Shown here one piece after another: positions 43,424-45,818 of a DNA stretch of 45,818 bases. The notes beneath the pieces are model-generated. The model did not search any database. It was not told the DNA's origin and worked only from the letters and a program-made list of their open reading frames with translations. The stretch covers positions 1-45,818 of the forward strand of contig SVPB01000007.1 in the NCBI GenBank assembly GCA_015066065.1. The letters are read 5' to 3'. The stretch's first letter is position 1. The number at the start of each line of letters is the position of its first letter. The position numbers were made by a program, and so were the translations under genes. The stretch is from Oscillospiraceae bacterium. GTDB taxonomy: Bacteria > Bacillota > Clostridia > Oscillospirales > Acutalibacteraceae.

Positions 43424-44566
43424 TCATTTGGGTTCATTTAACCACTCCTCGTCCCACGGATAATAGATAGACAAAATTTCTCCGCCCCTTTTCAAGGATT
43501 CCTCTGCATAAATACCGGGAATCGTCATAGCTAATCCCTCGCGAAGAGAGATCGGAGCAGGCAGCCCTTCTTGCACTGCACGGAAAAATCTGTCCTCTAT
43601 TGCGTAATCCATTCCGCCGTGTCCCTCTGCGTCAGGATTTTCGGCGTAGGCAGGAGGCATAAATTCACCGCTGATTTCTTCCATGTTGTTATTTGCTTTT
43701 TCAGAATTATAACGGATCACCGGTTTACCCATGCGATCAATACGCTCCATATACCCTTCGGTACCAAACACACGATAATTATGATGTCCTATATCTGCTC
43801 GACATCTTCCGTTTCTCATAAGACGAACAATTACACCCGATTCCGTTTGGAATTGCGCACACGACATATCATCTTTCTTGTCGCTTTTACCGTATTCTTC
43901 AGCAGCGGCATGTTGTCCTGTACCAAAGCACGAAACTCGGCGAAGATCTTCCCCAAGCACTGTCAACAGCGGTCCGAGCGAATGCGTGCAATAGCGAATA
44001 GGGGAAAGTAATTTTCGCCAGTTCCCGTTTTCAGTAAGTGCAACTGCAGTTTCCCTGTCTCTATCGGGATGATTCCAATGAATATACTCCGCCTCTAAGC
44101 AGTAAGGTTTTCCCAATTGTCCGCTTTGATAAAATTCATTTAATAACACGGAAAATTTTTGCTCATTGGGATTCGCGCCAACTGAGATGATTGCTGACGA
44201 TTTTTGAGCCGCCTTCCACAATCTGTCTGCCTCATCTAAGTTTGCAACTACCGGAATATCTGTAAGCACGTTAATATTTCTTTCCAATGCTCTTATACAA
44301 AAATCGGCATGTATATCGGCACCGGTTTCAACGATTACCGCACCCAGATTCGCCTTTTCGAGCATCTCATCATAATTTTCATAAAACACAGAATCAGGAA
44401 ACATTTCGCTAAACGGAGAATCCTCACGCCACTGCTTCTCATACCAATTGTGCGGCAAAATATCGCACGCTGCGGCGCACTCGACATAATCAAATTTTCC
44501 GGCCAGCTTAAACATTGCCCTGCCGCGGTGTCCCAAACCTACAACACCGACTCGAATTTTTTCCAT
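43424..44566 (-). CDS. Gfo/Idh/MocA-family oxidoreductase
   Basis: KIRVGVVGLGHRGRAMFKLAGKFDYVECAAACDI; CIRALERNINVLTDIPVVANLDEADRLWKAA; AEYIHWNHPDRDRE. Confidence 0.9.
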   Translation of the reverse strand: MEKIRVGVVGLGHRGRAMFKLAGKFDYVECAAACDILPHNWYEKQWREDSPFSEMFPDSVFYENYDEMLEKANLGAVIVETGADIHADFCIRALERNINVLTDIPVVANLDEADRLWKAAQKSSAIISVGANPNEQKFSVLLNEFYQSGQLGKPYCLEAEYIHWNHPDRDRETAVALTENGNWRKLLSPIRYCTHSLGPLLTVLGEDLRRVSCFGTGQHAAAEEYGKSDKKDDMSCAQFQTESGVIVRLMRNGRCRADIGHHNYRVFGTEGYMERIDRMGKPVIRYNSEKANNNMEEISGEFMPPAYAENPDAEGHGGMDYAIEDRFFRAVQEGLPAPISLREGLAMTIPGIYAEESLKRGGEILSIYYPWDEEWLNEPK

Positions 44567-44707
44567 TATTGATCCCTTCCTGATGTTTTTATTTTTATTT
44601 TATTATATCAAAAACGTCATAAAAATCTATAAATTTATTTCGAAATAAATGTATAATCTTTCAGCCGAATCAATTGGTCTAATATGATGAAAGATTAGGT
44701 AAGAAGT

Positions 44708-44738
44708 AAGCCCCAAGAACTTATCGTCCTTGGGGCTT
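44708..44738. terminator. Hairpin downstream of the 44785-45588 gene
   Basis: AAGCCCCAAG-N11-CTTGGGGCTT; A/T-rich on both sides. Confidence 0.6.
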
Positions 44739-44784
44739 TGGGACCGACACTCAAAATGAAACCGGTCTTAAAACTTGATTTTCT

Positions 44785-45588
44785 TTAATTTATGTGTTGT
44801 AATTTTTCAATAGCAGATGTTTTTATTGCTGTTTCTCCGCCAAAATTAGCACAGTATTGATAGTGTTTGATTGCTTTGTTGGTATCCTGTAACTTTTCAT
44901 AAATTTCTCCCAACCAATAATTAGAAATAAGCATATCTATTTTATCAGGTTTTGGGAATAAACGCGACAATACGTTAAGGTGATATACTTCTGCGGTTTT
45001 ATAGTCACCCCTAGCCATTGCACGGTCACTTTTTAAAATTACATCCACCAAACCACTGCAAACAATGTTTAACTTTTGCTTTTGTATTTCATTAAAAAGT
45101 ATCTCCGCCGCTTGATTATCACCATATGAAAACAATAATGAGGATTTTAAAAGTTTAGCCAAATTTTGTTTTTTATCGCTTGCCACATTAATCATTTCAT
45201 CAACAGTCGCAAGTGCGTTTTCTCTATCATTTAATAAATCATACGCAATTAACGCTACCCGCAAAACATCGACGCTGAGCTTTTTAATAACTAAATCATC
45301 AGCATTTTTTAGTTTCTCATAGTGTCTTATAAATTCAGCAGGTTTTAATTCTTGGCGAACAAGTTTATTTCCTAAATTTATTAACTTTCCCTTTCCCTCA
45401 GCATATCTCCCCCAAAAGATAATAAGTACACAAAGCAAATATACGATTATGCCTAATATTAACAGAAAATTTTCATTAATGCCCATACTGTTAAAAACAG
45501 CCCATAAAGAGATGGCAATACTCGCCAAAATAAAATAGCATATTGCCATAATCAATATTTTTCTAAAACTCTTTTTCGTTAAAAACAT
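44785..45588 (-). CDS. Hypothetical membrane protein with TPR-like C-terminal half
   Basis: MFLTKKSFRKILIMAICYFILASIAISLWAVF...LLILGIIVYLLCVLIIFW (two TM), then helical repeats (AEVYHLNVLSRLFPKPDKIDMLISNYWLGEIYEKLQDTNKAIKHYQYCANFG). Start corrected to 45588; the raw ORF N-terminus lies in the repeat array. Confidence 0.7.
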   Translation of the reverse strand: MFLTKKSFRKILIMAICYFILASIAISLWAVFNSMGINENFLLILGIIVYLLCVLIIFWGRYAEGKGKLINLGNKLVRQELKPAEFIRHYEKLKNADDLVIKKLSVDVLRVALIAYDLLNDRENALATVDEMINVASDKKQNLAKLLKSSLLFSYGDNQAAEILFNEIQKQKLNIVCSGLVDVILKSDRAMARGDYKTAEVYHLNVLSRLFPKPDKIDMLISNYWLGEIYEKLQDTNKAIKHYQYCANFGGETAIKTSAIEKLQHIN

Positions 45589-45636
45589 AAAATCACCGAC
45601 CTTTAAGTGTATTATAGCATAAAAGCGACGATAAAT

Positions 45637-45818
45637 CAATGCGAAGCATTGTATATCATCAATTCCGCAGGAATTGCATATCATCAAAACGCAAGTTTTG
45701 TATATCATCAAGCCGACAGATTTTTAATACACACCTAAAGGTGTGATGATATACGCCGCACTTGTGCGGCAATGATATACACGACTGCGTCGTGATGATA
45801 TACCAAGCCTGTCGGCTT
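45637..45818. repeat. Array of short hairpins with a conserved linker (TATATCATC / GATGATATA) and an orientation switch; continues past the window
   Basis: Stems CAATGC/GCATTG, CAATTCC/GGAATTG, CAAAAC/GTTTTG, CACACC/GGTGTG, GCCGCA/TGCGGC, CACGAC/GTCGTG and CAAGCC/GGCTT.., separated by near-identical 9-10 nt linkers. Linker orientation inverts around 45710-45730. Confidence 0.92.

Follow-up and report, generated by a model that had tools for sequence, protein, structure and literature searches.

Intervening sequences (IVSs) are insertions in rRNA genes that are removed by RNase III. The IVSs of 23S rRNA are associated with the S23/IVP protein family (PF05635, TIGR02436), for which, to our knowledge, structures have been solved, yet neither a function nor an enzymatic activity is known. 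Likewise, we know of no named host and no function for Gut-1 RNA. In an article on the Coxiella 23S rRNA IVS, tandem heptamers are described before the S23 ORF, and a PF05635 family member is cited as forming a pentameric ring (PMC4990558). Gut-1 is described, in the paper that reported it, as known from environmental (human gut) sequences only and was rated as certainly RNA (Weinberg et al. 2010, PMC2864571).

We analyzed a 45,818-nt stretch of DNA from an Oscillospiraceae bacterium (the window). It makes up one entire contig, C53, of an assembly of 1.7 Mb in 91 contigs. Its last 182 nt (45637–45818) hold a hairpin array that is truncated and lacks a protein gene; the family to which it belongs has Gut-1 RNA as its sister type. 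Hairpins and linkers were found where the initial annotation had placed them. A greedy count gave seven non-overlapping perfect hairpins (stem at least 5 bp, loop 3–4 nt), whereas 1000 dinucleotide shuffles of the same stretch gave a mean of 0.49 and a maximum of 3; the array is real and no artefact. The folding check that had been proposed agreed, with z scores against shuffles of −7.0 for DNA and −6.8 for RNA on the reverse strand. In the minimum-energy structure predicted for the DNA, linker–linker helices form a nested spine from which hairpins leave at each junction, and most of this spine is retained in the predicted RNA fold.

The linker is not the single invariant sequence first reported. 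The linkers fall into two sets that are complementary to each other and inverted in order (three TATATCATC/CATATCATC, followed by three ATGATATAC), and another supposed linker, AAGCCGACAG at 45710–45719, is instead the complement of the arm and loop of the last hairpin (A′). On the reverse strand, hairpins A to D are followed by A′ and then by hairpins E to G, with a linker at every boundary except that between D and A′. Linkers 1–3 are the reverse complement of linkers 4–6; three ATGATAT and three ATATCAT linkers make up two inverted heptamer arms (Table 1). A complete element of this type (type 1) has about 185 nt in a fixed layout: terminator, A-L-B-L-C-L-D-A′, L′-E-L′-F-L′-G, with L′ the reverse complement of L. 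Because C53 terminates within hairpin A, with the final bases missing, the window element is incomplete. Extension past 45818, which the initial annotation had suggested, ran into this contig end, and the hairpin A stem was absent from all other contigs of the genome, so the missing side was not recovered. In other copies a terminator, and then usually a tRNA gene, lies beyond hairpin A.

Table 1. Features of the window copy, its candidate promoter and the adjoining gene
Feature	Position	Strand	Basis or remark
Hairpin G, CAATGC-GAA-GCATTG, outermost on gene side	45637..45651	-	sequence; slot G in 93 aligned copies
Linker R3, TATATCATC on +, GATGATATA on -, heptamer ATGATAT	45652..45660	-	sequence
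Hairpin F, CAATTCC-GCA-GGAATTG	45660..45676	-	sequence; stem recurrent in slot F of other copies
Linker R2, CATATCATC on +	45677..45685	-	sequence
Hairpin E, CAAAAC-GCAA-GTTTTG	45685..45700	-	sequence; comparison with other copies
Linker R1, TATATCATC on +	45701..45709	-	sequence
A′, AAGCCGACAG on +, complement of hairpin A arm and loop	45710..45719	-	A–A′ covariation
Hairpin D, CACACC-TAAA-GGTGTG	45730..45745	-	sequence
Linker L3, ATGATATAC on +, complementary to R linkers	45746..45754	-	sequence; folds
Hairpin C, GCCGCA-CTTG-TGCGGC	45755..45770	-	sequence
Linker L2, AATGATATA on +	45771..45779	-	sequence
Hairpin B, CACGAC-TGC-GTCGTG	45780..45794	-	sequence
Linker L1, ATGATATAC on +	45795..45803	-	sequence
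Hairpin A, CAAGCC-TGTC-GGCTT..., cut by contig end	45804..45818	-	sequence; other copies
Candidate -35 box TTGATT, overlaps end of hairpin G	45634..45639	-	sequence; family-wide TATAAT offset
Candidate -10 box TATAAT, 17-nt spacer	45611..45616	-	sequence
Gene behind candidate promoter, about 267 aa, weak TPR similarity only	44785..45588	-	not the cognate four-helix-bundle gene

The early impression that similar arrays occur in other gut Clostridia proved right. Of 396 genomes from the same order, 79 had arrays by a loose three-linker pattern, and a single one matched the reversed control pattern. The named array contigs come mostly from MAGs of ruminant, deer and other gut samples and are labelled Clostridia, Oscillospiraceae, Christensenella or Ruminococcus. 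When a stricter type-1 pattern (ATGATATRC three times) was applied to 300 genomes across the phylum, it matched the window's genome and one other, where the unit is longer, more regular and unlike the window's element; type-1 copies are present in many genomes of this order and, the window's own genome apart, absent from the phylum-wide sample. A strict pattern that fixed the hairpin length had no match among 98 relatives, as hairpin lengths vary. Among 234 linker clusters in the fetched loci, the dominant orders were three-plus-three (type 1, exactly LLLRRR in 54) and four-plus-four with the linker order reversed (type 2, RRRRLLLL), and many of the others were these with extra linkers; 474 of 588 linkers read exactly T or C followed by ATATCATC. 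The window's genome also holds one type-2 array (L003/L016, contig C24). Hairpin A of the type-2 copies L087, L088, L092 and L094, from one genus, has a large nested insert (CCCCAAAACTCGCTTCGCTCGTTTCGGGG...), and L061 and L062 (G381) are two near-identical type-2 arrays in tandem, an arrangement seen again on another contig.

The initial annotation had set the array apart from CRISPR, REP elements and tandem satellites, and the family bears this out. CRISPR was rejected for the absence of identical repeats with unique spacers; an ordinary REP, because the linkers are constant and the palindromes vary; a tandem satellite, because the unit is a single dispersed element with 3+3 linkers; and a coding repeat, on account of the intergenic position and stem-loop design.

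Selection on structure rather than sequence had also been claimed, and here only one part stood. Pairing is retained although stems differ: when 3′ arms were exchanged within a slot among the 97 type-1 copies that have a T-run ahead of hairpin A, the mean perfect stem fell from 4.3–5.3 to 2.9–3.8 bp. Stem sequences nevertheless recur in given slots (e.g., CAATTCCTGCGGAATTG). Moreover, mutation by template switching in palindromes may contribute to the conserved pairing alongside selection, so stem conservation alone is no proof of selection on structure. The relation between A and A′ goes beyond a single hairpin, since the match extends over the loop of hairpin A, a part that this hairpin itself leaves unconstrained. 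In the same 97 copies, for which the orientation was first chosen by this complementarity and the T-run filter is independent, the match averaged 9.06 nt as compared with 5.64 (sd 0.23) after shuffling A′ between copies; for the 27 distinct A sequences, it was 7.96 against 4.68 (sd 0.35, maximum 6.0 in 2000). A′ covaries with A across copies, and this coevolution test rejects A′ as a plain spacer.

The arrays have a characteristic position. In the fetched loci, which were chosen for arrays or PF05635 genes and hence give no genome-wide rate, an array lies within 300 nt behind 121 of 166 cluster-final tRNA genes; at L044 it stands behind the tmRNA gene. In most cases the terminator hairpin starts 0–1 nt past the tRNA end, and since its flanks differ by class it may be part of the element unit. 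On the other side, 25 of 93 copies have a TATAAT-like box exactly at +21 from hairpin G (8 for the next highest offset), which indicates that the end of hairpin G (TTGATT) serves as the -35 box; the window copy has the same arrangement. With a terminator adjoining one side and a promoter the other, the array often fills the terminator-to-promoter gap. A DNA-level regulatory or insulating cruciform, retained upstream of promoters for separating tRNA transcription from the next gene, would accommodate the adjoining terminator, the -35 box shared in about a quarter of copies and the DNA fold. It would leave the patchy distribution among genomes, the unrelated downstream genes and the class-specific protein pairing described below unexplained, and we regard it as very improbable.

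Two further observations concern the flanks. The viral-labelled IMG/VR contigs L103 and L104 start (positions 1-420 in both) with a type-1 array, a terminator and an apparent tRNA 3′ part, and look as if an integrating phage took the tRNA tail along with the array. In a subgroup comprising L107, L156, L169, L173 and L175, and also L070, about 25–60 nt beyond hairpin G are in common (ATTTATGTAAGAGTTCGAATTCATACGCAAAA...), including the tRNA T-arm-like GTTCGAATTC.

The only recurrent gene behind the arrays encodes a protein of about 115 aa that matches PF05635 and TIGR02436. The type-1 protein is predicted to be a four-helix bundle (pLDDT 94.9), whose best PDB matches are 2RLD and 2GSC, followed by Avd (4DWL) and the DGR ribonucleoprotein (8UB7). 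The suggestion that the array is a substrate of a single-strand recombinase gained no evidence, the partner found being this four-helix-bundle protein; no nuclease, RT or transposase was tied to the array element, which we count against a selfish element. We then used an array-blind sample, a PF05635 profile search in the 396 genomes that yielded 90 genes with usable upstream sequence. Hairpin arrays were present at 42 of these, and a tRNA gene lay within 600 nt upstream of 30 of the 42 as compared with 3 of the 48 array-less genes (OR 37.5, p 7e-11, shared ancestry uncorrected). Genome by genome, 69 of the 79 with arrays carried PF05635, as did 112 of the 317 without, a comparison not corrected for phylogeny.

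The heptamers of the PF05635 arrays include ATGATAT, AATGATG, GTGAAGT, GTGATAT, GCTAAAT, AGTTATA, ATGAAG and TGAAAT, among others, and most of the examples inspected have the same architecture, with A′ matching A. On a tree of 121 proteins, heptamer classes (each the most frequent motif from a short list) required 25 changes as compared with 66.8 when shuffled, none of 200 shuffles being as low, with shared ancestry uncorrected; support was 100 for the type-1 clade and 99 for the type-2 clade. Each PF05635 protein clade has its own linker heptamer. About a third of the 32 type-1 genomes had the type-1 protein (at least 60% identity), and none of the 14 type-2-only genomes did. The array of most classes precedes the promoter and would therefore lie outside the protein's mRNA; at three GCTAAAT-class loci (L243, L277 and L284) the promoter comes first, which places the array in the mRNA leader. 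Our search of open-access literature gave no account of a system of arrays and PF05635 proteins; the complete architecture, the tRNA placement, the A–A′ link and the way each class pairs with its PF05635 proteins are new.

Heptamers also accompany PF05635 genes that lack hairpin arrays. Lag 7 was the best upstream lag in 24 of these 48 genes as compared with 11% of control stretches, and 27 of the 30 with clear heptamers had the inverted heptamer downstream (mean matches in the 30 genes, 15.8 versus 1.65 with mismatched downstream regions). Period-7 repeats flanked plasmid-borne PF05635 genes both upstream and downstream in 8 of 8 cases from four phyla (Monoglobus, Bernardetia, Treponema, Euhalothece, two Nostoc, Planktothrix and Dolichospermum), and the downstream repeats were inverted where the unit is easily read, as in Nostoc. 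Since heptamers bracket array-less PF05635 genes, the window's family looks like a version with adjacent arms and hairpin-separated heptamers. We put at about even odds the broader proposal that PF05635 proteins together with inverted heptamer arrays constitute a class of selfish elements, made of protein plus repeats and spread across bacteria, in which each clade reads its own heptamer, with the tRNA-linked arrays, Gut-1 included, as an elaborated Clostridial branch. If true, this would be a new class of mobile ribonucleoprotein or DNA–protein element.

Some related observations may be recorded here. The Monoglobus pectinilyticus plasmid 12 (L358) has its PF05635-like gene between the genes for a restriction subunit S and HsdR, and this gene is missing from the PLSDB gene table. 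Heptamer repeats of Xanthomonas (GGGAATC) and Nostoc (GGGGATT) have been published, their cause not being known (PMC4692102), and Xanthomonas Xcc0516 (2GSC) is a PF05635 protein.

Near-identical copies stand at unrelated sites. In one MAG, L173 and the second array of L175 share 99.5% identity over 187 nt, while their flanks do not rise above background and their terminators differ, and the first array of L175 is 98.9% identical to L107 from a different MAG. Decay is visible as well: C-terminal remnants of the type-1 protein lie beside arrays in G027, G380 and G433. The window copy has no PF05635 gene, the cognate type-1 and type-2 proteins are absent from its genome (90% complete), and the sole PF05635 gene there is of the GTGAAGT class. 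The distribution of the type-1 protein and the remnants are as expected where autonomous copies of an element are few and orphan ones many. The two loci tried, a GH43-like downstream gene and ligA, did not keep synteny and gave no clean empty site. PF05635 genes with an in-frame stop (G203:C46, G415:C61, G434:C18 and G074:C19) also fit a decaying protein gene. Arrays lie no more than about 600 nt from the contig end at G102:C4, G236:C10, G357:C9, G409:C2, G433:C26, G433:C69, G301:C40, G272:C141 and in the window; because short-read assemblies break at these elements, array copy numbers are underestimated.

The observed dispersal, the many copies without the gene and the mostly unrelated downstream genes could also fit a MITE-like element that an unrelated transposase moves in trans; the four-helix-bundle gene would then be a passenger or a neighbor that uses the promoter. 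Such an element would not be expected to have its linker class predicted by protein clade, nor would heptamers be expected to bracket PF05635 genes far outside Clostridia, and no target-site duplication was identified at array copies; we consider it improbable.

How far the arrays coincide with Gut-1 RNA was assessed with its covariance model (Rfam RF01706; gathering cut-off, 50 bits). A search of the window from 44000 to 45818 gave no match up to E = 1, and the type-1 copy L041 scored 29.7 bits. The sister type-2 array in the window's genome, at 48.4 bits, fell just below the cut-off, whereas L028 (62.1) and L036 (55.4) exceeded it, as did arrays with other linkers (L293, 76.2; L265, 62.3; L300, 56.8; L332, 53.6). 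Thus, by score, the window's type is outside Gut-1, and what was already known is the sister subtype, in Rfam as Gut-1 RNA. Type-2 elements match the model with their left half on one strand and, more weakly, with their right half on the opposite strand. The main text of the Gut-1 paper mentions no hosts, right half, A′, tRNA placement or protein partner (PMC2864571).

These scores, reaching 76.2 bits in sister types, raise the alternative that the array is a structured noncoding RNA gene of the Gut-1 kind that would have a cellular role and be transcribed from its own promoter or by tRNA read-through, with PF05635 as its RNP partner and mobility secondary. The RNA fold, the GCTAAAT-class arrays in an mRNA leader and the published rating of Gut-1 as RNA would all fit. 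Many copies, however, occupy precisely the stretch from a terminator to the following promoter, where transcription is not expected, Gut-1 scores appear on both strands, and the number and site of copies vary; we hold this alternative to be unlikely, though less so than the cruciform or the transposase-moved element.

The interpretation we prefer, with a probability of roughly 0.6, is that the window array is an orphan copy of a dispersing selfish element of the S23/IVP type, whose heptamer linkers are recognition sites of the cognate protein. Against it we count that the window copy and its genome have no cognate protein, that the ligA comparison yielded no clean empty site and that the promoter of most classes stands after the array. 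The full unit would consist of a terminator hairpin right at the tRNA 3′ end, a left arm of heptamers and a right arm of inverted heptamers, to which autonomous copies would add a promoter and the PF05635 four-helix-bundle gene. The heptamer, ATGATAT in the window, would be the site read by the cognate PF05635 protein. Hairpins between heptamers may keep the sites spaced and exposed, or the arms may zip into a spine with four-way junctions, in RNA or DNA form; pairing of A′ with A could give an alternative fold. Like its relative Avd in DGRs, the protein may act as a ring-shaped nucleic-acid scaffold rather than an enzyme, the ring binding heptamers of its own class, and copies would have moved to new sites as such elements. 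Linker motifs matched family by family give PF05635 its first concrete candidate partner, and the pairing of heptamer and protein reduces the puzzles of PF05635 and Gut-1 to one question, that of own-linker binding. Such binding would explain the heptamers before S23 in Coxiella and perhaps, as a lead only, the repeats of Xanthomonas and Nostoc.

With the 23S rRNA IVS, one of the closest known systems, the element shares the protein family, heptamers before the ORF (as in Coxiella), inverted-repeat ends, a selfish and often decaying ORF and a tie to stable-RNA genes. It differs in that copies stand behind tRNA or other genes and not inside rRNA, the heptamers are hairpin-separated with both arms together on one side of the gene, and many copies have no gene. 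REP/BIME sequences with RAYT and MITEs are likewise short, dispersed, intergenic palindromic repeats, whereas the array element has variable palindromes, constant linkers, a fixed 3+3 design and the A–A′ link. As for DGRs, the predicted fold of the partner matches Avd both alone and within the DGR ribonucleoprotein, but sequence identity to Avd is only about 13%. Gut-1 RNA, finally, has the A-L-B-L-C design of hairpins and repeated linkers in common with the type-1 left half; its model covers a 77-nt left half only, while the array element has both halves.
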